The notes below the pieces were generated by a model that was not told the origin of the DNA, ran no database searches, and saw nothing but the letters and a program-made list of their open reading frames with translations. From Verrucomicrobiia bacterium (GTDB lineage Bacteria > Verrucomicrobiota > Verrucomicrobiia > Limisphaerales > UBA11358): a stretch of 35,070 nt of DNA. Location of the stretch: NCBI GenBank assembly GCA_025451535.1, contig JANWKE010000100.1, positions 1 to 35,070 on the forward strand, given 5' to 3'. A program made the position numbers and the translations under genes. Positions 499-19,818 of this stretch are shown here, piece by piece; the stretch's first letter is position 1, and each line of letters opens with the position of its first letter.

Positions 499-2703
499 CT
501 ACTTGGACAACCGGAAAAATTGCGTCGCGTTAGTCGCCGGCAGGGCGATCTGATAATTAGTGCCAGTGATTTGTGGCACAGGCGGAGAAACAGTCGCCCA
601 ATTCGCCGACACCAGATTCGTGCAGGACTGCAAGGTGAAGCCGGCGAACGCCACGGGCCACGACATGGTCAGGTTTGTTCCTGTCATGGCCATGACAATA
701 GTCGGACTGCCGGTGCTCAATACCTGGTCCAGCACAACGGTTGTCAGCGAGAGCGGCGGCAGGGTTTGTGGATTGGTCAGCGAGCCGAGCGATAAAAATG
801 TATTGGTGCCGGCGTAGGTATTCGTTCCCGCCGTCTGGTAAACACTGGATGTGCCGACGCTGAACGTGCCAAAACTGAAATTCATCTTGGACGACGCAGT
901 GGCATTTGTGTTGATCAAAACCACCACCAACCGCGAACCATCCGGCGAAAGGCAGGCCGACGACCGAACGTTGGGGTCGTTGTCGGACGCGCTCACACGC
1001 CGGTAGCCGGGCTGGATGAAATAGGAAAAATGTTTCATGGCCCAATAAGCCGGCGTCAGCCACCAGCCGTGCGAATCCGTCGTGACGCCGGGCGGGGCGT
1101 TGGTCCAGGTGGAGTGGGAGGCATACGGATTTTCAATCTGCACCAACGCGTCGCCGGGGAAAGGCCAGACCAAACTCCAGTAGTTAAAACCTGAATCTTG
1201 TCCGATAGTCAAACAGTCGTGAATCATGCAGGCGGTCTGGATCATATCGGGGTATCCAAATTCTGTCATGAAGCGCGGTTTGCCGGGGAAAATATTGGTC
1301 GAAGAAATTAAATCACTTGTATATCCGTCCGGCGTGGGATCGTTAATACTGTTGCCGTAAAGGTGATACGCCACGCCATAAAAGCTGTTCGAGTTCATAT
1401 ACGTCGAGTAGTTCTGCAAATCGTTGTAGGCAATATGGACGCATTCCGGCGCGAGCAGCTTCGGCGGGGAAGGCAGATTGGTCAGAAGCTGATAAGTGGC
1501 GTCGAGCGCCTTGGCGTAACTCGCATAGTTCGTTCCGTTCACCGTTTTTTCCGTGGGATCCAGAATGCACGAATCATAACCCGCCGCCCAGTCCGGCTCA
1601 TTCTGGATGCTGATCCAGGTGGGCGAAACGCCGTTGGACCGATACGCATTGATCGAATCATACCAATACTGCGCGAAACCGGTGTAATCGAACCCGCCAT
1701 TGGTGTAGATCAACGTGCCTCCGTTTCCAGTTTGTCCATTGCTCTTCAGGAATGCCGGCGGCGACCAGGAACTCATATAGACCTGAATCGGATGGCCCAG
1801 AGTCCGGTTCGCGTTTGAAACAATATCGCCGGCCGCCGCGCCGTCACCGCCCGCCGAATTAAAACCTGCGTTGTAGCGATACCAGTCTGCCAATCTCAAC
1901 ATTGAGAGATTCAGTCCGGCAAAAGCGTTCGTGTATATTTCCAGCTTGTAAGGATGGGCTGGAACCCAACCATCGTAGAACGTAATGGCCCCGCCGAGGC
2001 CTTCGATGGTTTGATAGGTGATTTGGGGGTTGATGCTGGCGTTATACGCATTGGTGTTCGGGGCCGCCGTTATCCGAAGATTGTCCAATTGAATCGTTTC
2101 GGGAGTGGCCGTCACGCCGGCATTAAAACCGAGAAACACAAGCTGGAACGAATACTGGCTGTCGGTTGGATTCAGCGCGGGAATCTGATACCCCGTAGGG
2201 AGCGTGCCCAGGTTGACCGAAAAGTGCTCGAACCCGCCCCCGACAGTGATTTGACTGATGGGCACAGCGTAACTCGAACCGTCGGCAGCGCCCGTCCCAA
2301 AGATATTTAGCGTCACTCCGACTCCTGTGTTGGCTCCTTGGGTTATGGCCATATCGAAGGACAGGGTGTAGTCGGAGAGATCAGGGTCTGTGTTGCCGGT
2401 TGGCGTGTAGACGGGAGAGTTGACGCCAGCGTTTTCGGAGACGCCGTTGGTGATATTGCCGCTCAACTGCAGCGCCCGGCCGGTGCCCCCTGCCCCGGGA
2501 GCTACGATGGTTGACGTGACGTTGCCGCCAGACGCGTAATTATAAGTGCTGCCGAACGCACCCGGAGAATGAGAATCGAAATTGTCTGATAAGACAGTGG
2601 TCTGCGCTTGGGTTGCGAGACTGAAGCCGCAAATGGCGACGAACAATAACTGACATGAAATGATGATGAACCGAACGATAGAGTTTAATGAATACGAATT
2701 CAT
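499..2703 (-). CDS. Secreted GH30-family glycoside hydrolase (xylanase-like) with N-terminal module
   Basis: Start ATG is placed at 2703, giving 734 residues, because this begins a good signal peptide ending in TQAQ at about residue 34; an in-frame ATG at 2742 would add 13 residues. Residues 35-215 are the beta-rich module shared with three other proteins here. Residues about 225-655 match GH30: IEGLGGAITF near the start, SIQNEPDW with the acid/base Glu369, and FMTEFGYPD with the nucleophile Glu481. The segment AYWAMKHFSYFIQPGYRRV resembles the beta-sandwich start in GH30 glucuronoxylanases, so xylan is the likeliest substrate, but other GH30 activities are not excluded. Residues about 665-734 are the short C-terminal domain with GFTLQS and terminal FFRLSK, shared with other enzymes of the window. 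It probably forms an operon with the gene at 1-477. Confidence 0.88.
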   Translation of the reverse strand: MNSYSLNSIVRFIIISCQLLFVAICGFSLATQAQTTVLSDNFDSHSPGAFGSTYNYASGGNVTSTIVAPGAGGTGRALQLSGNITNGVSENAGVNSPVYTPTGNTDPDLSDYTLSFDMAITQGANTGVGVTLNIFGTGAADGSSYAVPISQITVGGGFEHFSVNLGTLPTGYQIPALNPTDSQYSFQLVFLGFNAGVTATPETIQLDNLRITAAPNTNAYNASINPQITYQTIEGLGGAITFYDGWVPAHPYKLEIYTNAFAGLNLSMLRLADWYRYNAGFNSAGGDGAAAGDIVSNANRTLGHPIQVYMSSWSPPAFLKSNGQTGNGGTLIYTNGGFDYTGFAQYWYDSINAYRSNGVSPTWISIQNEPDWAAGYDSCILDPTEKTVNGTNYASYAKALDATYQLLTNLPSPPKLLAPECVHIAYNDLQNYSTYMNSNSFYGVAYHLYGNSINDPTPDGYTSDLISSTNIFPGKPRFMTEFGYPDMIQTACMIHDCLTIGQDSGFNYWSLVWPFPGDALVQIENPYASHSTWTNAPPGVTTDSHGWWLTPAYWAMKHFSYFIQPGYRRVSASDNDPNVRSSACLSPDGSRLVVVLINTNATASSKMNFSFGTFSVGTSSVYQTAGTNTYAGTNTFLSLGSLTNPQTLPPLSLTTVVLDQVLSTGSPTIVMAMTGTNLTMSWPVAFAGFTLQSCTNLVSANWATVSPPVPQITGTNYQIALPATNATQFFRLSK
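2197..2612. repeat. Direct repeat copy B (module duplication)
   Basis: This is the partner of 1-416 and encodes residues 31-168 of the GH30 enzyme. Most of the mismatches are in third codon positions; only about three amino acids differ (for example NITNGV against NVTNGI, and DPDLSD against DPGLSD). The identity stops abruptly at the signal-peptide codons. Confidence 0.95.
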
Positions 2704-2767
2704 GTGAAGAACAAAAACAGTGTAACGGCGAACTAATAACACTTTAAGTTTTTTCTACTGTTTTGGA

Positions 2768-2785
2768 ATGAGTAAGAATACTTAC
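2768..2785 (-). promoter_or_regulatory. 18-bp shared upstream motif, site 1 (GH30 gene)
   Basis: The plus strand reads ATGAGTAAGAATACTTAC. It contains the inverted repeat GTAAG-AATA-CTTAC. Closely related 18-mers occur at 3711-3728 and 6817-6834, each upstream of another minus-strand secreted-protein gene. Here it ends 65 nt upstream of the GH30 start. A TATTAG hexamer on the minus strand (2733-2738) lies 29 nt downstream and could be a -10 element; no good -35 is seen, which would suit an activated promoter. The role as a regulator site is inferred. Confidence 0.55.
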
Positions 2786-2926: not shown

Positions 2927-3628
2927 TTAAGACACTCGACAAAAACGACGCCATCCAGCCAGAAGGCCAAGGCCTCCGGTGATTATGGCGAATGTGCCCG
3001 GTTCCGGAACCATGGTAATCTGAATATTATCCACCAGCAGCGTTTCGGGGCTGGCAGTCATATTGTTTCCATAGGCAACCACGCCAATCCCAAAAGCAAG
3101 GTTGGCGGAGGTCGGATTAAGAGATCCAGTAAAAGTGCCCAGATTGAACGAATACAGTTGGTACCCCGACCCCGCCGTCCCTGCAGCAGGGGTTACAAAG
3201 GGGGATACTGCACTCGGGCCAAATATTCCACCCCCGTTCTGAACGCTTATCTGTAACCCTCCATAACCAGTTGATATATCAACGCCTTGGATTGCCATAT
3301 CGAATGACAGGGTGTAATCGGCGAGATTCGCGCTGGTGTTGCCGCTGGCCGCATATGTTGGAGTAGCCGCTTGAAGGTTAACGGTGGTGCCACCAAGCGC
3401 GTTGAACGTCAATGCCATTGCCTGACCGCCCCCGTTGCCAGGAGCGACGATGTTGTTGGCGGGGAGCGCAGGGGTGGTGGGATCATTCACAAAGTCCGTT
3501 GTGTTGCCATACGCACCCAAGGTCAAGGAATCGAAGTTCTGTGACCAGACAACCAATTGCGCCTGACTTGTAAGGGATAAACCGCTCAAGGCTGCAACCA
3601 AGGACATTGATTTGATTATTTGTTTCAT
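2927..3628 (-). CDS. PEP-CTERM protein with the shared N-terminal beta-rich module
   Basis: The protein has 233 residues: a signal peptide (1-24, ending in SQAQ), one copy of the shared module (about 25-206) and a PEP-CTERM tail (207-233) with VPEPGT, a short hydrophobic helix and a basic end (WRRFCR). PEP-CTERM tails direct exosortase-dependent cell-surface sorting, so the product should be an exported, surface-processed protein. The module keeps the landmarks seen in the GH30 enzyme: NFDSLTLGAYG, NNIVAPGNGG, GNTSANLADYTLSFDM, YQLYSFNLGTF and PETLLVDNIQITM. With no enzyme domain, it amounts to the bare module on a surface anchor, which suggests binding rather than catalysis. It has its own motif-bearing upstream region (3711-3728) and its own terminator (2855-2886). 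No exosortase gene is in the window. Confidence 0.92.
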   Translation of the reverse strand: MKQIIKSMSLVAALSGLSLTSQAQLVVWSQNFDSLTLGAYGNTTDFVNDPTTPALPANNIVAPGNGGGQAMALTFNALGGTTVNLQAATPTYAASGNTSANLADYTLSFDMAIQGVDISTGYGGLQISVQNGGGIFGPSAVSPFVTPAAGTAGSGYQLYSFNLGTFTGSLNPTSANLAFGIGVVAYGNNMTASPETLLVDNIQITMVPEPGTFAIITGGLGLLAGWRRFCRVS

Positions 3629-3979
3629 AACAGGATTTTTTAAGTGTGACTTTAATCTTTGCTTCAGATTACTGAACGGCTAATGAAATCATTTTTTTTC
3701 AACCCGGTCTATGAGTACGAATACCTACAGTTGTGGGAATAGGTCGAAAACATCCGTCAAGGTTCGGCGATACGACGCGAATAGTGTTTGCCACCGGCCA
3801 GCCGTAATAGCCAAAAAGAGCCCCAAGCGTAAAAGTATACATCAAGAAATTTTTATCGTCGGCTGCATTCGACGTGCGGGTTGGTGAGACCACTCAATTC
3901 AGCACTCATTACTTTCGATATCGTTGAAATTTCGCACCCATCGAAAGCATCAAACATCACATCAGCGGTTTAAAATTAT
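3629..3979. other. Intergenic region upstream of the PEP-CTERM gene
   Basis: This 351-bp stretch holds the shared 18-bp motif (3711-3728), a T-rich tract (3691-3699) and an 8-bp inverted repeat CTTTCGAT/ATCGAAAG (3912-3919 and 3940-3947) without a T tail. A 64-codon open frame on the minus strand has no recognisable domain, and I do not believe it is a gene. Confidence 0.6.
3711..3728 (-). promoter_or_regulatory. 18-bp shared upstream motif, site 2 (PEP-CTERM gene)
   Basis: The plus strand reads ATGAGTACGAATACCTAC, which differs from site 1 at only two of 18 positions. It ends 83 nt upstream of the start of the PEP-CTERM gene. A CATTAG hexamer on the minus strand (3680-3685) lies 25 nt downstream and is a possible -10. 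The regulatory role is inferred from recurrence and position. Confidence 0.6.
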
Positions 3980-4834
3980 TTACCACCAGAAATGAGGTGT
4001 GTTGCCACCCGTTCGCACCTGCGTTGGATTGCTTTTCACATTGGCACTTGAGGCATTGAATTTCTGCCATTGAACATGACCGTCCTTGTATGCGTAATTG
4101 CCGCCAGCGGGCATCCCATTCTCCAAATGAGCGCTCAAATGTGGGTATTGTCTGCCGCCTATGCTAAAGCCACCGCCCACACTGCTGAAGTTGTCTCCAG
4201 GAGTCGCTGGAAGGTTGGCGCCGACGCTGAGGATTACGTCCGCTATGAGCACACGAGTTGATACCGAATCCCGAAACGGTGTAAATGGCCAAAGCGCGTT
4301 TGGGTGGTTCTCTGCGCCAATAGTTGTGTTTTGATTCGTCAGGGACAGGAGCGACGAGTTGGGGGACTTATTGGGCGGATATCCGCTGAAGGCGAAGGAA
4401 TAGCCGACAATGTTAAATGCCTTGCCAATATTCGTGCCAAAGTTCCACAGGGAGTTTTGATTTTGAAAGTTCAGGTTGTCATTAAATCTCGGCGCGGTGC
4501 CGGGGCAATAAAACGTCTTTTTCTGGCAGCCACTCGCCAACATCGCCGTCGTTACGGGCCAGGGTATGTCCCAGGCCCACGAAGCCCCGGAGCCGGGTGT
4601 GAGAACGGGCAGGTTGCCGTTATTGTCAATGGAATACGCATCCACGGAGAGATAGAGCTGCCTTTCATTGTTCATGCAAGTGATGCGTATGGCCCTTTCT
4701 TTCGCCTTGGCCAGTGCCGGCAGCAGCATCGCCGCCAGAATGGCGATGATGGCGATAACGACAAGCAATTCGATCAGTGTAAAGGCAGAACCTCTTTTCA
4801 TGTCCGACGAATTCAAACTTACTTTATTCATCAT
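3980..4834 (-). CDS. Prepilin-like secreted protein (type II secretion/type IV pilin N-terminus)
   Basis: The chosen start at 4834 gives 284 residues; a second good start at 4801 would give the short leader MKRGSA directly before the cleavage site. A longer frame upstream would read through a strong hairpin and is unlikely. The N-terminus has the prepilin methylation motif [20 protein letters not shown], so a prepilin peptidase should cut before the Phe and methylate it. The -1 residue is Ala rather than the usual Gly. The body is of the verrucomicrobial type: a long helix ([19 protein letters not shown]), a Tyr/Trp-rich C-terminal domain, [11 protein letters not shown] and the terminal residues HFWW. 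It is a paralogue of the protein at 14780-15652. Its role in pseudopilus assembly or surface display is unknown. Confidence 0.88.
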
Positions 4835-4860
4835 TTTGATTTGTAAGGCAGTTCTATTTC

Positions 4861-4893
4861 GGCCGCCGCAGCCAAAATCCGGCTGCGGCGGCC
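4861..4893. other. Perfect 13-bp stem-loop between two minus-strand genes
   Basis: GGCCGCCGCAGCC (4861-4873) and GGCTGCGGCGGCC (4881-4893) are perfect complements around a 7-nt loop. No T tract follows on either strand, so it is not a standard terminator. It lies 86-118 nt past the stop of 4979-6664 and 27 nt upstream of the start of 3980-4834. It may act in mRNA processing, attenuation or stability. Confidence 0.85.
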
Positions 4894-4978
4894 CTGTTAC
4901 ATGGTTACGGTTCATCCGTATAGACCACTTTGGTAAACATATTAGTATGGTATATGCGGGATTGACCGTGATGCTTGA

Positions 4979-6664
4979 TCACTGGCTCGGCGGAGGGCTT
5001 GAGAGCCGGAAAAATGCGTTTGGCGAAGGCGGTCCGCCCACCGTCCCGTTAACCGTCGGCAGGCAGCCATTGGGAATCCAAGTCCATTTCAGCGCAGTTC
5101 CCATTAAGGTCGGAGTCGTGTTCGTGCTGCCCGTGCCACTGCCGTAGTAATTGGGTGAGAACCACACATTGGTGCCACCGTTCAGACCGGCTTTGGTTTC
5201 CAGTCCGAACCCATCGTCGGGAATAGTCCAGTTCGCCCAATAAGAAGGCTCGCTGGAGACCAGGATGACGCTGCCGGCGTCCCTGGAAAAGCTCGGATCC
5301 CAGACCGTTGGGTCCAAATTGGTTTCACTGGTGAAATCGTCGTTCTCGTTTAGTCCGCCAACATTCGTCACGGCAATTTTACTGATGTCGGTGAATTGAC
5401 CAAAACCGCCTGTGGCTCCGGCAGAGGTTCCAAAGAAAATAGTCAATGGATCCACGAATTGAGCGGTCATATTGGGGTCCAGCACGAAGGATGCACTGGT
5501 GCCATCCGGCGCGGTCACGGTGCCACTCGTGTCGGTGGTGAAGGTTAATGTCCAGGTGCCGCGCCCATTGGTGCTGGTGGTGAGCAGTGGCGCCACGACG
5601 ATATTCGTTTCAAAGCCGTTGACGTTAGCCGGCGAGTTGGTTTTGAAAGCCAGGGCTGTCGTAAACCCGCTCGTACCTCCGCCAGACCGGATTGTCCACA
5701 CAAGGTCATTGTTGGCGTTATAAACGGCATAGGGGCCGTATGGGGGGGTGCCGGCATTCGGAGTGAACTGAATGTTCATCGCATAATTGGCGACGGTGTC
5801 GAAGTCCTGAAACGTAATCGCATACTTGACCGGTGTGCTCGGGGTTGCCAGACCAACCCAGGACTGGTTGAAGTCCTCGGTTGCGATTCCTTCCTGGGTA
5901 TAGACTGCGTCTGATGCCTGTTGAAAAACTCTCAAACCCCGTTTGGCGGGCAACACGCCTATTGACGGTCGCGGGGGCGCGGGCGGGTTTGTAGTCATCG
6001 TTATTTGAAGATTGTCGATATCAATCGTTATGGGGACACCGCCAAGATTGGCCGGATAAGCGACATCGCCAAACCCAAAGGAAAAATTGGTGGTGGTCGT
6101 AATAGTAACGCCGCTGTTTTTGAAATTGCTGAGAGGAATCGAATAATGTTGGTATCCCGTCCCAGCAGTAAAAACATTAGTGTCGGTATTGGGCAGGAGC
6201 AGATTGGATCCAAATACGCCGTATCCATTGGCGCCAGTCTGATTCGGGAATAGGCTGATCTGTACTCCACCAGCAGGCGACAAATTAATGGCGCCACTGA
6301 CTTTCATATCGAATGAGAGGGTATAATTTGCCAAAAACGCGTTGGTGTTGCCGCTGCACGGATAGGGAACAGTAGTCGTCTGAAGGTTAATATTGGGTTG
6401 GTTAGGGTTGAATGTGATCTCCAGTGCCTGACTGACACCCCCACCTTCTCCAGGAGTGACAATGTTCACTGCCACGTTTTCACCACCTTGAAAGTCTACG
6501 AACGCGCCATACGGACCTATTGGGTCGTCAACGAAGTTCGTGGTTGACCAGACGACGAGTTGCGCATGGGTTACTGTTGGAGCCAATGTTATGGCTATGG
6601 CTGCGGCACCAATCGCCAGTGCGGTCATGCAGGTCCGCTGGAGGATTGTTGTTTTGGTTTTCAT
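4979..6664 (-). CDS. Large secreted protein with shared N-terminal module, function unknown
   Basis: Start ATG at 6664 is preferred over 6760 because it opens directly on a signal peptide (residues 1-35, ending THAQ); the protein then has 561 residues. Residues 36-225 are a diverged copy of the shared module, with NIVTPGEGGG, ANYTLSFDMKV, YQHYSIPLSNF and DIDNLQITM. A Pro-rich linker (around 226) leads to a second half of about 330 residues, rich in Thr, Asn, Gly and aromatic residues. That half looks like beta-sandwich folds (possibly concanavalin-like), but I see no catalytic motif. The end, NAFFRLSSPPPSQ, is a partial version of the FFRL tail seen in the glycoside hydrolases. The gene lies divergent from the sensor kinase at 7106 and has a copy of the 18-bp motif upstream. 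A substrate-binding role is plausible but unproven. Confidence 0.82.
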   Translation of the reverse strand: MKTKTTILQRTCMTALAIGAAAIAITLAPTVTHAQLVVWSTTNFVDDPIGPYGAFVDFQGGENVAVNIVTPGEGGGVSQALEITFNPNQPNINLQTTTVPYPCSGNTNAFLANYTLSFDMKVSGAINLSPAGGVQISLFPNQTGANGYGVFGSNLLLPNTDTNVFTAGTGYQHYSIPLSNFKNSGVTITTTTNFSFGFGDVAYPANLGGVPITIDIDNLQITMTTNPPAPPRPSIGVLPAKRGLRVFQQASDAVYTQEGIATEDFNQSWVGLATPSTPVKYAITFQDFDTVANYAMNIQFTPNAGTPPYGPYAVYNANNDLVWTIRSGGGTSGFTTALAFKTNSPANVNGFETNIVVAPLLTTSTNGRGTWTLTFTTDTSGTVTAPDGTSASFVLDPNMTAQFVDPLTIFFGTSAGATGGFGQFTDISKIAVTNVGGLNENDDFTSETNLDPTVWDPSFSRDAGSVILVSSEPSYWANWTIPDDGFGLETKAGLNGGTNVWFSPNYYGSGTGSTNTTPTLMGTALKWTWIPNGCLPTVNGTVGGPPSPNAFFRLSSPPPSQ

Positions 6665-6816
6665 ATTGGACTTTGCTTTTGATTTGACTTGTTTCTGTTT
6701 GTTTCTCCTCGAAAACTCTGATTTAGATGCTGATGACATCAACGCATACGGCCAACCCATGGCAGATCGAGGATAATCATAGATTAGATTCTATCACGCA
6801 TTCAAAAGGATTTGAA

Positions 6817-6834
6817 ATGAGTACCAATGCCTAT
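6817..6834 (-). promoter_or_regulatory. 18-bp shared upstream motif, site 3
   Basis: The plus strand reads ATGAGTACCAATGCCTAT. Together with sites 1 and 2 the consensus is ATGAGTAnSAATRCYTAY. It is 153 nt upstream of the start at 6664, with a TAGAAT hexamer 23 nt downstream on the minus strand. Confidence 0.5.
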
Positions 6835-6839
6835 AAGAC

Positions 6840-6853
6840 GAGTATGTATACTC
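6840..6853. promoter_or_regulatory. Palindrome beside motif site 3
   Basis: GAGTA-TGTA-TACTC is a perfect 5-bp inverted repeat with a 4-bp spacer. Read on the minus strand (from 6855) it begins ATGAGTA, like the 18-bp motif, so it may be a second, oppositely oriented site pointing at the sensor kinase gene. The match to the second half of the motif is weak. Confidence 0.4.
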
Positions 6854-7105
6854 ATTACAAATGGCGACCTCACCGCAAACTTTGCCCGGCCTCGGACTGA
6901 TGATTGCATCGGGGTCTTAAGACCGTGCATTTCTGCGGTATACGCCGTGACACCTACCGGCAAAGACCGCGCCTGAAATCCGATGGCCGGTCATGCATCA
7001 CAGCTCGGGACCCGCGAAAGTGCTTGCCGCAATCAGCCAAGGTGATAAGAAATGATGTACCATTTAACCGACTATCGGGCGGGCTGTCCGAAGTGAATTG
7101 AATCT

Positions 7106-10100
7106 ATGTTTCAATTGTCAAACCATCGCCGACAACTGCTCTTAAAATCAATGCCCCTGCTTTTGTCGGCGGCCAGCGTGTTGGTGTGCGGAGCCGAGGA
7201 CTTTTCGTCCCGCCCGAACGCAGCCAGCCTGGCGGTGAATTCTGGTCATTACGTGACGAACGTGGCGCAATTCAGAACCCTCTCCGACGCGGATTACCTG
7301 GCCGGGTGCGACTTCCGCCTGACCGGCGTTTTCACGCTGGTGGACACGAACCGCGATGTGGTGGTGTTGCAGGATGCAACCGGGGCGGCAGCCTTGAACT
7401 TTCACATTGGAAACCGGAACCTTCAGGTGGGGCAGTTTGTTGCGATTGATGGCACCAATTGCTGCCCCCTTTTTCGAAGCTTTCCAGATTATCCGTATTA
7501 CCCCTCGGGTCGGAATATTTGCAATTCATTCGAGGCTCCTCTGAACTGGGGCGAATACAACTTGACGCGGATGCGAGGCTATCTGCATCCCCAGGTCACG
7601 GGTGTTTACACCTTTTGGATAGCCAGCGATAACTCTTCAGAGTTGTGGTTGAGCCCGAACGCGGACCCATCCAAGGTCAGAAAAATCGCGTCCATCCCCC
7701 GTTTCGGCTGGGTGCTCGTACACGAATGGTCGCGATATCCATCCCAACGTTCAGAGCCGATACAACTGGAGGCTGGCAAGACTTATTACATTGAGGCGCT
7801 GCAGGAGCAAACCACCGTAGCCGAAAACCTCTCAGTCGCCTGGCAGGGACCCGGTCTGCCCAGATCGGTTATCAATGGCCCCTACCTCACTCCTTGGAAC
7901 ATAGACCGCCGCTCAACCGAAGCCGCAACCAACGGCATCCTGCGCGAATACTGGACCAATTACTGGGATGGTGATTTGAGCGGCATGGGCGGAGCGCACT
8001 CATTCGAATCGGCTTTGACCATCCAGGAAGTTGGGATTCGCCTTCATGGACCTGGAAAATTGCCAGAACCCGATCAAATTGCCGTGGCCCAGCCGTTGCC
8101 GGTTGAAAATAACTATCGCTGGGTGCAAGCGGAAGGAGTGGTGACCTTTAAGGCAGTAGCCGAAAATACCGCTACCCTGGAATTGTCTGACGGGCGGGCG
8201 CAGGTGCAAGTGCGCGTGAAGCACTGGAGCGACGAAATGTCGGGACAATTAGAACAGTCAAGCAACCTCGTCGTCCAGGTTGATGGAGTTTGTGAGGGAG
8301 TTTATGATCAAAATGGAACGCTGATGCCGGGGCTAATCTGGGCTTCGGCAGACAACAGCGTTTCCTTCCTCAAGACTGTCACGACAAATAAATTCACCCC
8401 GGCAAACCAACCTGCTCTGTCAACGGTTGCCTCCATTCCGGCCATGCAGGGCTTTTATGGAACCCGCGGCGTGACGACTTTTAACGATCGTGTCTTTGAC
8501 AAGCACTACATCTTTGTTCAAGAGGACAACACCGCCATGTTGGTTTCTCTCGATGACCTCGCTTTCAAAAACCAACTGGAAGTGGGGCAAGGTGTTGATC
8601 TTGGCGGCGCGCTGGAACCGGGCAAATACCTGCAGGTCATCACCCCGTTGGTCGTCACGGAACTCGGATGGTTTTCCATGCCCAAGCCCATTACCCATCC
8701 CCTGGGCGTCCCGAACCCGGCCAGCCTGGTGGGGAGATGGAGTGAACTTGAAGGCGTAATCCATTCGGTGAACACTAACGGAACCCTCACCATCGTGGGA
8801 AAAGACGGTCCCGCCTATCTCTGGCTGGGCAAGACAGCTGCCAATTACCTGGCCCGTTATGTGGATGCAGAAGTGTGCGCACGGGGCGTACTGATGCCAA
8901 ACATGCTGGAGGAACCGCTGTTGCTCATTCCGTCCCGCAATTTTCTCGATGTCAAAGAGGAAGCGCCAACAAATCCTTTCGACGTACCGAGGCATTCAAT
9001 CGCCTACCTCCTTTCCGAAGGAGTGGAATCTTCGTGGTCCCGTCGGGTGCGAGTGGTTGGTGAGGTCACCTATCAGGACGCCCGTTCATTTTTTATTCAG
9101 GACGCCTCGGGTGGAATTCGGGTGCGAACCACCGATGAACCGAAAGTGAAAACAGGGGAAACGGTTGAGGTGCTTGCATTCCCGGCGCTCAACGGTTTCA
9201 TCCATACCCTCACCGAACCGCTGATACGTCCATCCAGGTCAGTTGAGCATGTAAGTCCCAAGGATTTGGATTTGAACGAGGCGTTATCTTTAAAGCAGGG
9301 CGGCATTTTGCTTGGCGCCAGCGCTACGATGTTGGCTTGCACCACGAACGGGGAGAATCAAGTGCTGGAGCTTCAGGAACAACAGCACGTATTTGTGGCG
9401 ACCCTCGCAGCCAATCGACACAGATTGCCAGACATAGTTCCGGGCAGTCGCCTCCGGATCACCGGAGTTTGCGACGACGAACCAACTGCGTCCCTGTCGG
9501 CGGCGGCAAGGCCTGCGGGCGCACGACAAATCATGGCTTCGCTCAATATCCTGTTGCGCAGCCGGGAAGACGTGGCTGTGCTCAGCGGTCCTCCTTGGTG
9601 GACCTGGAAAAGAACCGCAACGCTGGTGGGGACACTGCTCACGATATTGGCGGTAACGTTGTTATGGATTCACCTGTTGCATCGCCGGTTGGAACGGCAG
9701 TACGCCTCCCAACTCGCATTCTCGCGGCAAGTTCTGGAAAGGCTGGAAGATGAGCGGCGGCGGATTGCCGTTAACTTGCACGACAGCCTGGGACAAACCT
9801 TGCTGGTAATCAAAAACCACGCCATGTTGGCGATGCAAGGCTCGCCGGAGGAAAACGGTCTGCGCCACCGTTTGGATGAGATTTCCGGCACCACGTCCCA
9901 AGCCATTGAGGAGGTGCGCCGGATTACTCATGGCTTGCGGCCTTACCAGTTGGATCGCTTAGGCCTGACCCAGGCGGTTCGCGCCTTGACCGACCGCGCC
10001 TCCAGGCACAATTCGATTTTATTCGCCAGCCGAATCGATGACATTGACGACCTGTTCGATAAAGATTCCGAAATCCACGTTTACCGAATCGTGCAAGAAG

Positions 10101-10369
10101 CCATCACCAACGTCGTCAAGCATTCTGCGGCCACGGAAGCGACGGTAGTCGTCAAGAAATGGGCAACGTTCGTTTCTCTTTCGATCCGGGACAACGGCCG
10201 AGGCTTTGATCCGGCGAGACAGTCTGCCCAACGGCACGACCTCGGGTATGGACTCAGCGGCATCGCTGAACGGGTGCGCATTCTTAAGGGGACCCTGGCG
10301 CTTGATTCCAAACCGGGTGAAGGCACCAGCTTGACCGTCGAAGTTCCATTCCCTAATCCACGACTATGA
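7106..10369 (+). CDS. Membrane sensor histidine kinase with extracytoplasmic PA14 domain
   Basis: The 1087-residue protein starts with a signal or anchor segment (about 1-29). A long exported region follows, with a PA14-like domain at about 140-250 (GVYTFWIASDNSSELWLS, IQLEAGKTYYIEALQ); PA14 domains often bind glycans. The stretch 270-830 holds several OB-fold-like beta units, of which TYQDARSFFIQDASGGIRV is the clearest. One transmembrane helix (836-858) joins it to the cytoplasmic kinase. The HisKA_3 dimerisation region has ERRRIAVNLHDSLGQ with phospho-acceptor His892. The ATPase domain has NVVKH (Asn1002), DNGRGFD (Asp1029) and GYGLSGIAERV. This is the NarL-partner type of kinase. It overlaps the response regulator gene by four bases (ATGA). 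From its neighbours it may sense polysaccharide fragments outside the inner membrane, but the ligand is unknown. Confidence 0.92.
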   Translation: MFQLSNHRRQLLLKSMPLLLSAASVLVCGAEDFSSRPNAASLAVNSGHYVTNVAQFRTLSDADYLAGCDFRLTGVFTLVDTNRDVVVLQDATGAAALNFHIGNRNLQVGQFVAIDGTNCCPLFRSFPDYPYYPSGRNICNSFEAPLNWGEYNLTRMRGYLHPQVTGVYTFWIASDNSSELWLSPNADPSKVRKIASIPRFGWVLVHEWSRYPSQRSEPIQLEAGKTYYIEALQEQTTVAENLSVAWQGPGLPRSVINGPYLTPWNIDRRSTEAATNGILREYWTNYWDGDLSGMGGAHSFESALTIQEVGIRLHGPGKLPEPDQIAVAQPLPVENNYRWVQAEGVVTFKAVAENTATLELSDGRAQVQVRVKHWSDEMSGQLEQSSNLVVQVDGVCEGVYDQNGTLMPGLIWASADNSVSFLKTVTTNKFTPANQPALSTVASIPAMQGFYGTRGVTTFNDRVFDKHYIFVQEDNTAMLVSLDDLAFKNQLEVGQGVDLGGALEPGKYLQVITPLVVTELGWFSMPKPITHPLGVPNPASLVGRWSELEGVIHSVNTNGTLTIVGKDGPAYLWLGKTAANYLARYVDAEVCARGVLMPNMLEEPLLLIPSRNFLDVKEEAPTNPFDVPRHSIAYLLSEGVESSWSRRVRVVGEVTYQDARSFFIQDASGGIRVRTTDEPKVKTGETVEVLAFPALNGFIHTLTEPLIRPSRSVEHVSPKDLDLNEALSLKQGGILLGASATMLACTTNGENQVLELQEQQHVFVATLAANRHRLPDIVPGSRLRITGVCDDEPTASLSAAARPAGARQIMASLNILLRSREDVAVLSGPPWWTWKRTATLVGTLLTILAVTLLWIHLLHRRLERQYASQLAFSRQVLERLEDERRRIAVNLHDSLGQTLLVIKNHAMLAMQGSPEENGLRHRLDEISGTTSQAIEEVRRITHGLRPYQLDRLGLTQAVRALTDRASRHNSILFASRIDDIDDLFDKDSEIHVYRIVQEAITNVVKHSAATEATVVVKKWATFVSLSIRDNGRGFDPARQSAQRHDLGYGLSGIAERVRILKGTLALDSKPGEGTSLTVEVPFPNPRL

Positions 10370-11019
10370 ATCAGGAAGTAACTGTGCTGATTGTGGATGA
10401 CCATCCCCTCCTCCGCCACGGGCTGCACGATGTCATCGCGCGCAATCCGCGCTTCAAGATCGTGGGCGAAGCGTCCGATGGGGAGGCGGCGCTGCAACAG
10501 ATGGCATGCCTGAAACCCCAAATCGCCATCCTTGACATTGATATGCCCCGGCTCAACGGGTTGGAAACGATTCGAGCGGTTCGGCAGCTGCCGTTTCCGG
10601 TTAAGGTGGTAATCCTGACGATGTATAATGAGGAAGACATGTTCAACGCCGCGATGGATTTGGGGGCGAAGGCCTACGTTTTGAAGGAGAACGCTGCAAA
10701 CGATATCCTGACGGCGCTGGAGAAGGTGGAGCGCGGCGAAAGTTTTATGAGTGCCTCGATGCTGGAGGCTGGAAAACGCCGGAGCGATCGGGTGCGGGAA
10801 TTGCTTTTGAGCAGACCGCAAATCGAGTCATTGACACCTGCAGAGCGACGCATTCTAAAGCTTGTGGGTGAAGATTACACCAGCAAAGAAATTGCCAACC
10901 GCCTCAACTTGAGCGTCAGAACCGTGGAAAACCATCGGCAGCACATCTGCGACAAATTAAAACTGCATGGAACCCACAGTTTGTTGAAATTCGCCTTTGA
11001 TAACAGCGCATACCTATAG
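10366..11019 (+). CDS. NarL/FixJ-family response regulator
   Basis: The protein has 217 residues. The receiver domain (about 5-125) has the acidic pair Asp11/Asp12, phospho-acceptor Asp57 (ILDIDMPRLNG), Thr85 and Lys107 (YVLKE). The LuxR-type helix-turn-helix (about 152-210) shows LTPAERRILKLV, TSKEIANRLNLSVRTVENH and the downstream recognition region. The start codon overlaps the stop of the kinase gene as ATGA, so the two are translationally coupled and should form a cognate pair. Response regulators of this class bind short inverted repeats as dimers. The 18-bp motif with a GTAAG/CTTAC arrangement found upstream of three nearby genes is a candidate target, but this link is inference. Confidence 0.95.
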   Translation: MNQEVTVLIVDDHPLLRHGLHDVIARNPRFKIVGEASDGEAALQQMACLKPQIAILDIDMPRLNGLETIRAVRQLPFPVKVVILTMYNEEDMFNAAMDLGAKAYVLKENAANDILTALEKVERGESFMSASMLEAGKRRSDRVRELLLSRPQIESLTPAERRILKLVGEDYTSKEIANRLNLSVRTVENHRQHICDKLKLHGTHSLLKFAFDNSAYL

Positions 11020-11609
11020 ACAACCATGCTGATGCAGGAGTCGGGAGTATAATCAGTGGACGAGTCTCGAATCAGCAGTTCGACATCAAGTCCCCTATGG
11101 ATGGAACCTGCGCCAGAGCCGGAAATGGCCTCCTGCCCGCCCGGGATTTCTGTGCTGCTGCCCTTGGTATTTGGAATAGCGGCGGACAGGTAAAGCAAGA
11201 ATGTTGCAAAAGCAACTTATCGGCCATGGTCAGGCAATCTCGCTCTCTACGCGTTGGATTATTTCAAGGTCGGCGAACCGAATGCGTCACAGCAAAACCA
11301 AGCGCCCAGACCTTGCGCCGATGAACCCGCGGGGCATTTCAGCTTCGCGCCGGTTCGATCCGCTGCCAAGAAAACTGGAACATGACGACACCGCTGGTAT
11401 CATTAAACCGTGTGCTGAACAACCGGCGTTGGCCCGATCCATCTTGGCAAGGACCCGGGTGTTGTTTGGTCTCCCATTCTGGTCCCACCGGTTGTCATTG
11501 GATACCCTCTTTTTTTACGCGCACACGAGCCAACCTCTAAACAATGGGAAATCAGTTTCAATCTGGTCAAAGCGCATGCCACCGTGTATAATTGATTTGT
11601 TCCATTAGC
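11020..11609. other. Gene-poor stretch between response regulator and sigma factor
   Basis: About 590 bp with no convincing gene. A GTG-started 45-codon frame (11056-11193) and a longer frame from 11201 lack recognisable features. No intrinsic terminator is evident after the response regulator. The last 50 bases contain a sigma-70-like promoter for the sigma factor gene. Confidence 0.6.
11564..11592 (+). promoter_or_regulatory. Sigma-70-type promoter upstream of the ECF sigma factor
   Basis: A perfect TATAAT lies at 11587-11592, with TGGTCA (four of six matches to the -35 consensus) at 11564-11569 and a 17-bp spacer. Transcription would start near 11600, leaving only about 10 nt before the ATG at 11610. 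Confidence 0.55.
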
Positions 11610-12167
11610 ATGAGCGCGATAACCCTGATGCTGCAGTCCGTCGGACGCGGTGAAAGTCGGGCGTCCGAGGAGCTGTTGCCGTTGGTGTATGATGAATTGC
11701 GTCATCTGGCGGAGGCACGCATGGCCCAGGAATCCGCCGGCCAGACCCTGCAGCCGACGGCGTTGGTGCACGAAGCCTGGCTCCGGCTGACGGCCGAGGG
11801 AGAACAGACCTGGCAAGACCGGGCGCATTTCTTCCGGGCCGCCGCCCTGGCCATGCGGCGCATTCTGGTGGACCGGGCCCGCCATAAGTCCAGCCTCAAG
11901 TGCGGCGGCAACCGGGAGCGGCTGGATATTGAGAACCTGGACCTCACCGCCGCGACCCCGGACGACAAAGTTCTACTGGTAGACGAGGCGCTCAGCCGGC
12001 TGGAAACCGAAGACCCGGAAAGCGCCAGGGTGGTCAGCCTCAAATTCTTTGGTGGACTGACCAACCTGGAAGTGGCCAAAACCCTGGACGTGACGGAACG
12101 TACTGTGGAACGCCAATGGGCATACGCCAAGGCGTGTCTTTATAAAATCATTCAGGAGGAAACTTGA
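11610..12167 (+). CDS. ECF-type RNA polymerase sigma factor paired with a Ser/Thr kinase
   Basis: The protein has 185 residues from the ATG at 11610; a TTG at 11592 in the same frame falls inside the promoter and was rejected. Region 2 is seen in LPLVYDELRHLAEARM, TLQPTALVHEAWLRL and HFFRAAALAMRRILVDRAR. Region 4 is seen in SLKFFGGLTNLEVAKTLDV followed by TERTVERQWAYAKACLY. This is the sigma subgroup common in Planctomycetes and Verrucomicrobia (TIGR02999-like), which has no classical anti-sigma factor and is often encoded next to a Ser/Thr kinase, as here (85 bp upstream of the kinase). The kinase may control it by phosphorylation, which is known for some such pairs and only inferred here. 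Target promoters are unknown. Confidence 0.93.
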   Translation: MSAITLMLQSVGRGESRASEELLPLVYDELRHLAEARMAQESAGQTLQPTALVHEAWLRLTAEGEQTWQDRAHFFRAAALAMRRILVDRARHKSSLKCGGNRERLDIENLDLTAATPDDKVLLVDEALSRLETEDPESARVVSLKFFGGLTNLEVAKTLDVTERTVERQWAYAKACLYKIIQEET

Positions 12168-12182
12168 AATCCAATTCTTTGA

Positions 12183-12219
12183 CGTATTCCCGAATGTCGG
12201 TTTTCGCGCCGGGAATACG
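12183..12219 (+). promoter_or_regulatory. Inverted repeat between sigma factor and kinase genes
   Basis: CGTATTCCCG (12183-12192) and CGGGAATACG (12210-12219) are perfect 10-bp complements around a 17-nt loop. It starts 16 nt after the sigma factor stop and ends 33 nt before the kinase start. There is no T run. It may be an operator or an attenuating hairpin that sets the sigma-to-kinase ratio. Confidence 0.55.
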
Positions 12220-12252
12220 CTTAATCTATTGTAGGACCGGGATCTGGGATTA

Positions 12253-14502
12253 ATGACACATTTGCGAGAAATCGAAAAGGCTTTGTTCGATGCGGCGCGG
12301 AACGTGAGCGACCCCGCCGTGCGCCAGGCGTTGCTGGATCAGACCTGCAACGGCAACCCGGCCTTGCGGACACGGATTGAAACCCTGCTGACGGTTCAAG
12401 AGCCGGCCGAAGAATTCTTTACGGTTCATGAACTGAAAGCTGAGGCGGCGGAAACTCCCAAGGCCGAAGCAAAGGCCCCGGATGACCTGACAGACGTTTC
12501 AGCAGTTGAACCGGCTGCGTCGGAAGGTCCCAACGCGCGTATCGGCCATTATCGGCTGTTGCAACGCATGGGCGAAGGCGGGTGCGGGGTGGTTTACCTG
12601 GCCGAACAGGAAGAGCCGCTCCGACGGCGGGTTGCGCTTAAAATCATCCGGCTGGGAATGGACACCGAGAACGTCATCGCCCGATTCGAGGCGGAACGGC
12701 AGGCGCTGGCGTTGATGGACCATCCGAATATTGCGCACGTGCTGGATGCCGGCGCAACCAACCTGGGCCGGCCCTATTTCGTGATGGAGCTGGTGCGCGG
12801 AGTCAAAATTACGGACTATTGCAATCAGCATCATCTGGACCTCCGCCAGCGCCTTGATTTATTCATTCAAGTTTGTCACGCCATCCAACATGCTCATCAA
12901 AAAGGGGTCATTCACCGCGACATCAAACCCTCGAACATTCTGGTTTCACTGCATGATGGCGTGGCGGTGCCGAAGGTGATTGATTTCGGCATTGCCAAAG
13001 CCACGGCGGGTCGGCTCGCCGACACTCCGGCGGTTACTGCCTACGGCCAGTTCATCGGCACTCCGGCCTATATGAGTCCCGAACAGGCCGAGCTGGGCGG
13101 GGTGGACGTTGATACACGCAGTGACATCTACAGCCTGGGAGCGCTGCTGTATGAACTGCTGACGGGCCGGACACCTTTTGATAACCGGCAACTGCTGGAT
13201 TCGGGCTGGGATGAAATGCGCCGAACCTTGCAGAAGAAGGAGCCGTTGCGGCCATCGAACCTGGTTGCCACCCTCCCGTCAGATGAGCTCCGGGCCATTG
13301 CCGGAAAGCGGGGCCTGGAACCGGCCCGGATGATCTGGCTCTTAAAGGGGGACCTGGACTGGATTGTCATGAAGGCGATGGAAAAGGACCGGTCACGACG
13401 GTATGAAACCGCCAACGGACTGGCAATGGACGTGACACGATATCTGAACAACGAGCCGGTCATGGCCCGTCCCCCCAGCCGAAGGTACCGGCTTCAAAAA
13501 TTGGTGCGCCGGAACCGCGCGGTCTTTGTTTCCATCGCGGCCATAGCCGCGACACTCGTCCTTGGCTTGGGCGCTTCAACCTGGCTTATGTTCCGGGAAC
13601 GGGAAGCCCGCCAGGAAGCCGAGCGGGGCCGTGCGAGCGAGGCCTTGTTGCGGCAGCAAGCCGAGGCACGAGCGGCCATTAGCCAGGCGGCGGCGTTGGT
13701 GGGCGAGAACCAGTTTGGCGCCGCGGACCAGTTGATGGCAAAAGTCACTTTTCCGGAAAACGGGCTGGGCGGCGAGGCGGTGTTCCGGCCCTTGGGCGAT
13801 TGGGCAGCGGTCCCGGGCCGCTGGCAACGTGCGGCCGAATATTTCAAATTGCTCGTGCGGGTGGACCAAATGGAAACGCCGGATGTCGCCACCCTGGACA
13901 GCACGCGCTGCGCCGTTGCCCTGATTGAAGCGGACGACACGCCGGGCTACGAGCGTTTCCGCCGCGAGATCATCGAGCGTTTTGCCAGCACCCGCTATCC
14001 AGTAGAGGCCGAACGGACGCTGAAAAACAGCCTGCTGTTGCCGGCGGACAGCACCATCATGGCGGCCCTGGCGCCCTTGGCCGACCTGGCCGCCAAGGCG
14101 GTGCCGACAGGCACTCCCACGCCGCTGGAGGAGCCGTGGCCGGGCGCCATCGCCTGGCGCTGTGATTCTCTGGCCCTGTGGAGTTATCGCCGGGCAGACT
14201 ACGCGGCAGCGGTCGGTTGGTGCCAGCGATGCCTGTCCTACGGAAACGACAATCCCGCCCGAGTCGCCACCGCCAATGCCATTCTGGCCATGTCCTATTC
14301 CCGGCTCGGCCAAGTCCAGAATGCGCGCAACGCCTTGGCCCTCAGTCGCAATCTTGTGGACAGCAACAGCGGGCAGGGAAATGGCGGGCAGGGATATTGG
14401 TTTGACTGGAGGCTCGACCAAATTCTCATGAACGAAGCCGTGACGCTGATCGAGCAGCCTCGTCCTGATCCAACAATGGAGGACATTCCCAGTCCAAAGT
14501 GA
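12253..14502 (+). CDS. Membrane Ser/Thr protein kinase (PknB-like) with C-terminal periplasmic domain
   Basis: The protein has 749 residues. After an acidic helical N-terminal extension (1-94) comes a full Hanks-type kinase domain (about 97-400): glycine loop MGEGGCGVVYLAE, Lys130 (VALKII), HRDIKPSN with catalytic Asp223, DFG at Asp244, GTPAYMSPEQ and DIYSLGALLYELLTG. A transmembrane helix lies at about 424-446, followed by a charged helical stretch (RQEAERGRASEALLRQQAEA) and a C-terminal region of about 270 residues that looks helical and TPR-like. All catalytic residues are present, so it should be active. It follows the ECF sigma factor gene and is its likely partner. The extracytoplasmic helical part may sense a signal or bind proteins; no ligand can be read from the sequence. 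Confidence 0.93.
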   Translation: MTHLREIEKALFDAARNVSDPAVRQALLDQTCNGNPALRTRIETLLTVQEPAEEFFTVHELKAEAAETPKAEAKAPDDLTDVSAVEPAASEGPNARIGHYRLLQRMGEGGCGVVYLAEQEEPLRRRVALKIIRLGMDTENVIARFEAERQALALMDHPNIAHVLDAGATNLGRPYFVMELVRGVKITDYCNQHHLDLRQRLDLFIQVCHAIQHAHQKGVIHRDIKPSNILVSLHDGVAVPKVIDFGIAKATAGRLADTPAVTAYGQFIGTPAYMSPEQAELGGVDVDTRSDIYSLGALLYELLTGRTPFDNRQLLDSGWDEMRRTLQKKEPLRPSNLVATLPSDELRAIAGKRGLEPARMIWLLKGDLDWIVMKAMEKDRSRRYETANGLAMDVTRYLNNEPVMARPPSRRYRLQKLVRRNRAVFVSIAAIAATLVLGLGASTWLMFREREARQEAERGRASEALLRQQAEARAAISQAAALVGENQFGAADQLMAKVTFPENGLGGEAVFRPLGDWAAVPGRWQRAAEYFKLLVRVDQMETPDVATLDSTRCAVALIEADDTPGYERFRREIIERFASTRYPVEAERTLKNSLLLPADSTIMAALAPLADLAAKAVPTGTPTPLEEPWPGAIAWRCDSLALWSYRRADYAAAVGWCQRCLSYGNDNPARVATANAILAMSYSRLGQVQNARNALALSRNLVDSNSGQGNGGQGYWFDWRLDQILMNEAVTLIEQPRPDPTMEDIPSPK

Positions 14503-14779
14503 CCTCTCCATTCCTCTACCACACCAGGCCTCTTTTGGGAGGCGAAGCACGTTTCCGGCACATTTTGCTCCCGGTTGGTGAGATCAGGCATTTGGCGCAC
14601 GATGGAGAAAAGTTCTGTCGCTATCAAGTTGTGTTACAGCCTTCTCCAGTCGCGCTGGACAGGCAAAACGGTCCAACGACGCACCGCGACACGCGTCGCC
14701 CCTGCCCATCGCCGTTTTTTATCCTCTAAAATTCCTGTCGGGTTCTGAATGCGAAATCCGCTTATCCAGATAGAATCCT

Positions 14780-15652
14780 ATGTTGTCGACCCTTGTTTTT
14801 GAACGGAATAAAGTTTCGGGAGGACGGAGTGCCTCTCAGAAAGACGGTGTGACGGTCGACTCCGGCGCTCCGAATCCACCAGGATTCACCCTGATCGAAT
14901 TGCTGGTCGTCATTGCCATTATTGCGATTTTGGCCGCGATTCTCCTCCCGGCGTTGGCTGCCGCCAAGGAGAAAGCCATTCGCACCCAATGCATGAACAA
15001 CCTGCATCAAATTGGCATCGCCCTGTTTGTGTATGCTGGCGACAACGCCACCAGTAACAAGTTGCCCGCGTATAACACTGCCACCGGCGCGAGTTGGGCT
15101 TGGGACATGCCTTGGGATGTCGGCAATCAAATGCTTCAGAGCGTGGGTGGAAACCCAAAAGCTTTTTACGATCCCGGAACCGCAATGCGGTTTACCGACG
15201 CAGACGACTTCGCCGGCTCCAACAGCCTTTGGAATTACAGCCCTGGCAACTTTCATGTCGCTGGTTATGTTTTCGCATTTTCGGGTCAGGCCTGTGACCT
15301 CAAACTGGCCGCTCAAAATACAACTTTACAGCCGGAATCCACCGCGAACCCGCAAAACAGCCTCTTGCCGCCAGTAAGGATTCCCGTTTCGGAGCGGGAA
15401 TTGTTCACGGATGCGACGATATCCACTCCGTCCTATGGCACCTACGCCAACCGCAACACTTACAACTACACGGAAATCGCCGGTGGTTTTTACAAACTTC
15501 ATACCAGTCCGCATCTGAACGGGCACTTTCCGTCCGGAGGCAATATTGGGTTCAAGGATGGGCATGTGTCATGGCGCAAATTTGACGATATGAATCAGTG
15601 GAGTTTTAAAGCCCCCCTCAGTCGTGGGGATCCTCCGAGTTTCTGGTGGTAA
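14780..15652 (+). CDS. Prepilin-like secreted protein, paralogue of 3980-4834
   Basis: The protein has 290 residues. The prepilin motif [20 protein letters not shown] begins at Gly35/Phe36, with the conserved Glu40 at position +5. The leader is rather long (35 residues), so a later start cannot be excluded, although no other ATG is available before the motif. The body has the same plan as its paralogue: [29 protein letters not shown], the C-terminal [11 protein letters not shown] and a final SFWW. Such proteins are abundant in Verrucomicrobia and Planctomycetes and are presumed to enter a type II secretion or pilus-like machine. No assembly genes are nearby. It sits 71 bp upstream of a PEP-CTERM gene, and the two could share a transcript. 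Confidence 0.9.
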
Positions 15653-15723
15653 CATTTAAAATTTAATTTGAACACCCTTAACCGAACGCAACTGAAAGCA
15701 ACCACGAACAACCACGTAGCACC

Positions 15724-16662
15724 ATGAAAACTCAAAACCCAACCATCCGGAGACAAACCAAGCTCATTCTGGCCATCAGTGCAACCCTCGCCGGCCTGAG
15801 CACTGCGGCCCAGGCACAGTCCCTGGGCATCTATTACAACTTGCAGACCTACGGAACCGTTGCCAACGGCAACTCGATCCTTGACGTACTGGGAAACACG
15901 ACGGCCACCCTGAATAACGACGCGAACACCTCCCTGACGAGCAGCGGCTTGACTATCGTCTCGGCCTCGGGAAATTCCGCAAGTACCGGCTTAACTCTGG
16001 CTTCCGGCTCTCTCAGTGGTTACACTGGAAGTTTCTCCGTTCAGGACTGGGTCACGATCGCGAGCCCTAACAACGGCGTAGCCTTGTGGGGGGCCAACAA
16101 CGGTCCGGCCAATACTTATATCGGCGATGGATATACCGGCGTCAGTACCTTGATCGGATTTACCTGGGGCAGTCTTGCGGGTGGCGGCGGAACCGGCAAC
16201 CCTTTGGGCCAACCCTACAACCGGTATGGAAACACTGTCGCAGGTTATTCGCTTGCTGCCAGTCAGTCTTACGATCTCTTGTTGACCTACAATGCCTCCA
16301 CCTACACCTTCAACCAGTATTTAAACGGTTCCTGGGTTGGTTCATTGCAGGAGGCGTTCAGCAGCACCAGTCTGGCCGGTACCCAGCTTCTGGCCATTGG
16401 CGGCTGCCCGAATGAACCCTGGTCTCCCTGGGGTGACGCCTCCGCTGACGCGACGACGACAGACTTCCTCCTTTACAACGGAGAGTTGACCGCTTCTCAA
16501 GCCTCTGCGTTAGACATCGCCGGCGCCGGTGCGTCGGTTTCCATGATTAACGCCGCCATGGTTCCCGAACCCGGCTCCCTGGCGCTGTGGGCGCTCGCCG
16601 GTGTAACCGGCCTGTTTCTCCGGCGGTCATTCCGCTCGTCCTTGACCACGACGAAACAATAA
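15724..16662 (+). CDS. PEP-CTERM protein with one LamG-like domain
   Basis: The protein has 312 residues: a signal peptide (about 1-32, ending AAQAQ), a single beta-sandwich of the LamG/concanavalin type (about 33-270) and a PEP-CTERM tail with VPEPGSLALWALAGVTGLFL followed by RRSFRSS. The LamG fold is suggested by FSVQDWVTIASPNNGVALW, LLLTYNASTYTFNQYLNGSW and DFLLYNGELTASQASAL, which parallel the LamG units of the next genes. No catalytic residues are seen. The product is probably an exported, exosortase-sorted surface protein that binds glycan. A strong hairpin with a T-rich tail follows the gene, so it is separated from the downstream three-LamG gene. Confidence 0.9.
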   Translation: MKTQNPTIRRQTKLILAISATLAGLSTAAQAQSLGIYYNLQTYGTVANGNSILDVLGNTTATLNNDANTSLTSSGLTIVSASGNSASTGLTLASGSLSGYTGSFSVQDWVTIASPNNGVALWGANNGPANTYIGDGYTGVSTLIGFTWGSLAGGGGTGNPLGQPYNRYGNTVAGYSLAASQSYDLLLTYNASTYTFNQYLNGSWVGSLQEAFSSTSLAGTQLLAIGGCPNEPWSPWGDASADATTTDFLLYNGELTASQASALDIAGAGASVSMINAAMVPEPGSLALWALAGVTGLFLRRSFRSSLTTTKQ

Positions 16663-16673
16663 CAACAAGCAAG

Positions 16674-16719
16674 CGCCGGCGGGCACAGGCAGGTCCGCCG
16701 GCGGTATCTCGTTTTCTTG
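16674..16719 (+). terminator. Probable intrinsic terminator after the LamG PEP-CTERM gene
   Basis: CGCCGGCGG (16674-16682) pairs with CCGCCGGCG (16695-16703) across a 12-nt loop. A T-rich but interrupted tail (GTATCTCGTTTTCTTG) follows. It starts 11 nt after the stop codon. Confidence 0.7.
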
Positions 16720-16790
16720 AACTTGATTTACCGATTGAACCCAGAGGCAGCAAATAAAAGGGCAAATCAAACCTCCAACCGCGAACTAAA

Positions 16791-19742: not shown

Positions 19743-19774
19743 ACGGACCGGGGTATTGGAGCAGTGGGTCAAGA

Positions 19775-19818
19775 CCGCCGCGTGGTTTTGGAAGCGCTGA
19801 AACCCGCGGCGGTTTTTT
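19775..19818 (+). terminator. Intrinsic terminator after the three-LamG gene
   Basis: ACCGCCGCG (19775-19783) pairs with CGCGGCGGT (19805-19813), with two further G-C pairs after a bulged T, and is followed directly by a run of six T residues (19813-19818). It lies 33 nt beyond the stop codon, so the next gene needs its own promoter. Confidence 0.9.

Follow-up and report, generated by a model that had tools for sequence, protein, structure and literature searches.

A PA14-bearing, OB-array histidine kinase and its NarL-type regulator as a candidate switch for a local regulon of secreted enzymes and pseudopilins in Verrucomicrobiota

The two-component systems NarX/NarQ-NarL and UhpB-UhpA combine a kinase carrying a small helical or membrane sensor with a DNA-binding regulator, and NarL sites are inverted repeats of 7-2-7 geometry (PMC7419079). 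In the clostridial SigI/RsgI3 system, extracellular PA14 domains sense polysaccharide and control carbohydrate-active enzyme (CAZyme) genes; RsgI is an anti-sigma factor acting via intramembrane proteolysis, the PA14 pair (dyad) of RsgI3 binds pectin, and the cognate sigma factor drives pectinase genes (PMC4711584). The hybrid two-component systems of Bacteroidetes place an exported sensor, kinase, receiver and AraC-type DNA-binding domain in a single fused protein that controls an adjacent polysaccharide locus. Here we analyse a kinase/regulator gene pair at positions 7106-11019 of a 35,070-nucleotide stretch of DNA, called the window, from a Verrucomicrobiia bacterium of the order Limisphaerales (contig JANWKE010000100.1, assembly GCA_025451535.1). 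The pair belongs to the HisKA_3/NarL class, not to the RsgI or hybrid families. Judging from sequence comparisons, its most likely role is control of a local regulon that encodes secreted polysaccharide enzymes, PEP-CTERM proteins and pseudopilins.

The kinase gene (7106..10369, plus strand) encodes an exported-sensor histidine kinase of 1087 amino acids, as supported by the open reading frame (ORF) call, Pfam, an AlphaFold2 model and hydropathy. It shares an ATGA overlap (10366-10369) with the gene of a 217-residue NarL/FixJ-type response regulator (10366..11019, plus strand; ORF call and Pfam). Three kinase domains lie above their Pfam cut-offs, PA14 at residues 155-250 (PF07691, 32.7 bits against a gathering cut-off of 24), HisKA_3 at 883-948 and HATPase_c at 989-1083, and the regulator is likewise identified as Response_reg plus GerE, with the recognition helix RTVENHRQHICDK at residues 185-197. 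This adjacency of a HisKA_3/HATPase_c kinase and a Response_reg/GerE regulator is that of the NarL class, although no equivalog cut-off was reached by the pair. The predicted phospho-acceptors, His892 of the kinase within NLHDSLGQ and Asp57 of the regulator, are conserved. The pair is kept in nine further genomes at 39-92% identity and is therefore not a product of chance ORFs. Hydropathy indicates an N-terminal signal-like stretch followed by a single transmembrane segment at about residues 839-858, so the earlier note on this DNA was correct in assigning some 800 residues to the exported part. Its description of this part as PA14 plus OB-like β units ahead of a HisKA_3 core, and of the NarL-type regulator coupled by an ATGA overlap, is also borne out.

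The pair shares with NarX/NarQ-NarL and UhpB-UhpA the kinase core, the H-DSLGQ box and the regulator domains, and its candidate operators share the NarL site geometry. It differs in the huge exported OB/PA14 sensor and in the half-site, which is TGAGTA, unlike that of NarL. No RsgI-type anti-sigma domain paired with SigI was found at the locus; a histidine kinase and a NarL-type regulator take that place, and the kinase has one PA14 domain, set within an OB unit, where RsgI3 has a dyad. As the earlier note had stated, the arrangement also departs from the Bacteroidetes hybrids: sensor kinase and regulator are separate proteins, without Reg_prop/Y_Y_Y or AraC-type domains, and neither SusC nor SusD was found among the scanned proteins of the window. 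By analogy, the pair would work as NarX-NarL does, while sensing outside the cell as RsgI3 does and governing a local regulon as the Bacteroidetes hybrids do. A search of the open-access literature for papers on histidine kinases with PA14 in Verrucomicrobiota, or on sensor kinases built as OB arrays, found none, which is weak evidence of absence.

The AlphaFold2 model of kinase residues 29-832 (804 amino acids, six sequences) has a mean predicted local distance difference test (pLDDT) score of 64, which is moderate, and contains about six repeated β-β-β-(α)-β-β units. Foldseek matched the model to tandem OB proteins (HIN-200, Teb1, S1), and VIA-align against single OB folds gave Z scores of 10-13 over 81-103 residues with root-mean-square deviations of 1.8-2.9 for at least four units, the matches including RPA and the anticodon-binding OB domains of AsnRS/AspRS. 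Because both lists are filled by OB folds, the nearest OB subfamily is left unstated. The PA14 domain (7568..7855, plus strand) is predicted to be inserted into the first OB unit of the array (7313..8053, plus strand; about residues 70-316), separating its fourth strand from its fifth (strands 41-90 and 276-288 in the model, to which 28 is added for kinase numbering). Support independent of the model comes from a profile of units 1 and 2 with residues 123-297 excised, which aligns straight to paralogues without PA14, including L060:5415-7880 and L061:8665-12036, and spans the junction without a large gap. The closest solved PA14 domains are 6qdi (E 6e-10) and 6qe7 of RsgI3 from C. thermocellum, both from clostridial biomass sensors, and PA14 is present in every orthologue with readable sequence (the corresponding stretch of one genome, G256, reads N). 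Given these relatives and the nature of the regulon targets, glycan sensing by the exported part is plausible by analogy.

The aligned kinase-upstream regions share a conserved palindrome, TGAGTA-N4-TACTCA (type A), whose 7-2-7 geometry is that of NarL sites and which is a predicted binding site of the regulator. A pattern search of the window allowing up to three mismatches gave three matches, at 6839, 2769 and 3712, against 0.32 expected. The match at 6839..6854 (CGAGTATGTATACTCA, differing from the 12 fixed bases at one position) lies between the kinase gene and a divergent gene for a secreted 593-residue protein. Exactly 21 bp from it, a position weight matrix trained only on the locus of the 70% identical relative (G233) detects another copy at 6818..6833 (TGAGTACCAATGCCTA), and G022, G233 and G083 have pairs with this 21-bp spacing as well. 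The other two candidates precede a PEP-CTERM gene (3712..3727; same position in the 92% relative G022, L050:17295) and a GH30-like gene (2769..2784). The window sites are thus confined to the divergent cluster on the left and the region upstream of the kinase.

All five genome-wide sites of G233 (up to one mismatch) fall inside this one locus, where they precede a kinase/PEP-CTERM pair, a GH43 gene, a homologue of the 593-residue protein (two sites) and a pseudopilin, and a blind search of the locus recovers the same palindrome family (nine similar pairs against 0.03 expected). In G256, which was found after the motif had been fixed, one site stands in the interval that separates the kinase from a GH30 gene, and another where a pseudopilin gene starts. 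The 4.40-Mb draft genome that contains the window has a perfect site before a pseudopilin on a small contig (C99) with GH31, GH3 and malectin genes. In several genomes, then, candidate operators precede genes for PEP-CTERM secreted proteins and pseudopilins as well as CAZyme genes (GH30, GH43). Four genomes of the same genus without an orthologous pair contain 0, 1, 0 and 1 sites, the single ones being unrelated to secreted genes; one of the four, G241, carries a distant kinase of a longer type (class 2, see below).

Binding of these candidate sites by the regulator itself is best supported by a joint change of recognition helix and operator. No TGAGTA site was found at the loci of G045, G057, G381 and G548, in the first two even at up to three mismatches, and this led to the recognition of a second operator type (type B). 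The regulators of these four genomes have LNIC or HNIC in place of QHIC in the recognition helix, along with other changes. Thus, among ten orthologues, six with RTV[ED]NHRQHIC go with TGAGTA sites and four with [LH]NIC go with TRGGTR-N4-YACCYA sites. The type-B sites lie upstream of a pseudopilin in G045 and upstream of the kinase in G548; in G057 they lie upstream of the pseudopilin-kinase operon and just past the regulator, a third TAGGTA match (C19:41870) being inside a gene and dismissed as chance. The 5.9-Mb genome of G381 has just one such site, upstream of an operon running toward pilin-like genes.

A search of 320 genomes of the order and a class sample of 384 showed that the pair is rare, being present in few genomes of either. 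Full-length orthologues, each with an adjacent NarL-type regulator, occur in G022 (92% identity), G233 (70%), G150 (68%), G083 (55%), G256 (52%), G045 (51%) and G057 (48%), and outside the order in G381 and G548 (both about 42%). The relatives named in GTDB are Limisphaerales/Verrucomicrobiales whose genomes were assembled from metagenomes of bog and palsa soils. According to Pfam, the CAZymes near the pair are a GH30-like enzyme in the window's own genome, GH43 in G022, GH43 and GH51 in G233, GH30-like, GH29 and a GH2 homologue (the latter by BLAST) in G256, GH95 in G083, a SASA esterase with GH2_N in G045, and GH43 with a GH5-like enzyme and CBM6 in G548. For comparison, the same seeds, own-lineage ones being excluded, were used to scan 40 control regions (20 kb each, drawn from six orthologue genomes). 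The pseudopilin motif is found near the pair at 8/10 orthologue loci against 3/40 controls (p about 1e-5). CAZyme seeds are found at 6/10 loci against 3/40 (p about 1e-3), an enrichment that is somewhat flattering since the seeds were drawn from the orthologue loci. Counting the three nearest relatives once leaves p values of 0.0002 for pseudopilins and 0.01 for CAZymes. Genes with the prepilin N-terminal methylation motif are numerous in any case, about 62 in the 4.4 Mb of the window's genome and 30-87 in relatives, far exceeding the needs of a pilus or type II secretion system.

These results separate what the earlier note had proposed into parts. A local two-component system tied to polysaccharide genes is upheld by the operators and the CAZyme enrichment, with the qualification that the most constant partner is the pseudopilin; orthologues lying consistently away from CAZyme genes, named there as contrary evidence, are not what the survey found, even though three loci have no recognised CAZyme. 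The position between two polysaccharide clusters is right, but operators occur only at the left cluster and the right has an extracytoplasmic function (ECF) sigma factor of its own. The suggestion of a verrucomicrobial alternative to the hybrid systems does not hold: so rare a pair is no general substitute for them.

We propose, with somewhat better than even confidence, that the pair is a locus-specific two-component switch which has a glycan as its most likely ligand and drives a local polysaccharide and surface regulon through the palindrome. The ligand, most likely a plant-cell-wall oligo- or polysaccharide, would be bound by the OB/PA14 sensor outside the cytoplasmic membrane, and the signal would cross the membrane along the one transmembrane helix; the HisKA_3/HATPase core would in turn phosphorylate Asp57 of the regulator. 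A regulator dimer would then bind TGAGTA-N4-TACTCA, often at two copies 21 bp, or two helical turns, apart, and would activate rather than repress the divergent genes, which encode the GH30-like enzyme, PEP-CTERM protein, 593-residue protein and pseudopilin, and probably also its own kinase/regulator operon. Control of the local regulon is well supported, because the positions and rarity of the operators, their co-variation with the recognition helix and the enrichment of pseudopilins and CAZymes all point to it. Somewhat more tentatively, with the balance tipping slightly to the negative, the pair may represent a distinct polysaccharide-sensing class of Verrucomicrobiota, characterised by a PA14-in-OB sensor, a regulon of pseudopilins and secreted enzymes, paired operators, and an operator switched from TGAGTA to TRGGTR along with the recognition helix.

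Several points weigh against the proposed polysaccharide switch. PA14 domains are found in many unrelated proteins, and the Asp-Asp canonical for the sugar-binding PA14/GLEYA lectins is replaced by Asp-Asn in this kinase. The type-A motif was first picked out by eye in the kinase-upstream alignment, and the type-B pattern was fixed only after its sites had been seen, so that its weight rests on genome-wide rarity. Besides the choice of seeds mentioned above, Pfam scans found no recognised CAZyme near the pair at three of the ten orthologue loci (G150, G057, G381), and no CAZyme accompanies the pair as constantly as the pseudopilin does. This constancy leaves room for a sensor of the cell surface that would respond to assembly or export of the pseudopilin, the 593-residue protein and the PEP-CTERM protein, or to a peptide, cell-wall or nucleic-acid ligand of the OB array, and would adjust the expression of these proteins, with CAZymes being secondary. 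Such a sensor would agree with the operators upstream of pseudopilins in five genomes (G233, G083, G256, G057, G045) and on contig C99, with the homologue of the 593-residue protein beside the kinase in five genomes, with the loci that have no CAZymes, and with an exported mass made up mostly of OB-like units, whose fold often serves for nucleic acids or peptides. However, operators also precede GH30 and GH43 genes, and PA14, kept in all readable orthologues, has polysaccharide sensors as its closest solved relatives; we therefore consider a surface sensor unlikely, while giving it serious weight.

The palindrome might instead belong to another regulator, for example a global one of the NarL or LuxR family, with the pair merely adjoining its targets. 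Binding by the present regulator is a prediction, and candidate sites with no pair nearby occur at G083:C62:7687 and G150:C111:1711, but the near-absence of sites from the four same-genus genomes without the pair and the co-variation with the recognition helix in ten orthologues make this improbable. Still less probable, and already disfavoured by the operator evidence and the enrichment over 40 control regions, is a HisKA_3 kinase of the ordinary, orphan-like kind, whose extracellular domains are decorative and which adjoins CAZyme genes by chance, even considering the 24 matches to the kinase protein in its own genome and the richness in glycoside hydrolases that Verrucomicrobia can show (PMC5615132). 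The proposed switch with its local regulon thus remains our preferred explanation.

The left cluster is encoded on the minus strand. The gene at 499..2742 encodes a GH30-like secreted enzyme with weak similarity to the glucuronoarabinoxylanase XynC, and its homologue in G256 (54%) is divergent from the kinase there. It is followed, in order of position, by the gene of a PEP-CTERM secreted protein (2927..3628) related to the 593-residue protein (about 43% in the G022 copies), a pseudopilin gene with the N-terminal methylation motif (3980..4915), and the gene of the 593-residue protein (4979..6760), which has no Pfam or NCBIfam family and has homologues adjoining the kinase in G022, G233, G150 and G057. 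The pseudopilin gene is separated by 63 bp from 4979-6760 and is probably co-transcribed with it. A reading of the 593-residue protein as a carbohydrate-binding module was dropped, the predicted structure being uninformative (pLDDT 34).

On the plus strand beyond the regulator, outside the predicted regulon, lie genes for an ECF sigma factor (11592..12167, TIGR02999) and an adjoining Ser/Thr protein kinase with a TPR-like C-terminus (12253..14502). They separate the pair from the right-hand cluster, which includes a pseudopilin, LamG, GH51, GH5-like (Glyco_hydro_cc) and GH2 proteins; the window scan found no strong operator site in this region (11592-29533). The location of the ECF sigma factor and Ser/Thr kinase directly before the cluster suggests a second, separate regulatory system, and the sigma factor is probably its regulator. 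Further along, 32677-33852 encodes an unusually long protein (391 amino acids) that matches nucleoside diphosphate kinase over three stretches.

The wider family of OB-array kinases, to which the 24 matches belong, is common in the order. These paralogues share the OB-like units and the HisKA_3 core, and several have an adjacent regulator and secreted proteins; unlike the present kinase, most have no PA14. Two tandem OB-array kinase/regulator pairs, for instance, lie by a GH16-like and a large secreted protein elsewhere in the same genome (G000:C168, L060:5415-14021). The class-2 kinases (L104, L105, L106, L107 and L055; 1335-1390 amino acids) begin with PA14/OB, lie beside large secreted proteins and have a pseudopilin nearby at 3/5 loci; operators, should they have any, were not found. 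No convincing shared palindrome was found at either the PA14-less or the class-2 loci. It is noted that the gene following the near-perfect TGAGTA site at G083:C62:7687 (L139:7687) encodes a PEP-CTERM protein and adjoins another OB-array kinase/regulator pair, which hints at cross-regulation between paralogous systems. PA14 of the type in this kinase (38-50% identity) also occurs in secreted proteins of 2000-4300 amino acids in many genomes of the order (e.g. L086-L099).

In soil and peat, Verrucomicrobiota play an important part in breaking down plant polysaccharides, and we found no description in the open-access literature of how they control enzyme production. The sensor, regulator, operator and target list described here make this question testable. 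The target list also links the abundant and unexplained pseudopilins, about 60 per genome, to a polysaccharide regulon.

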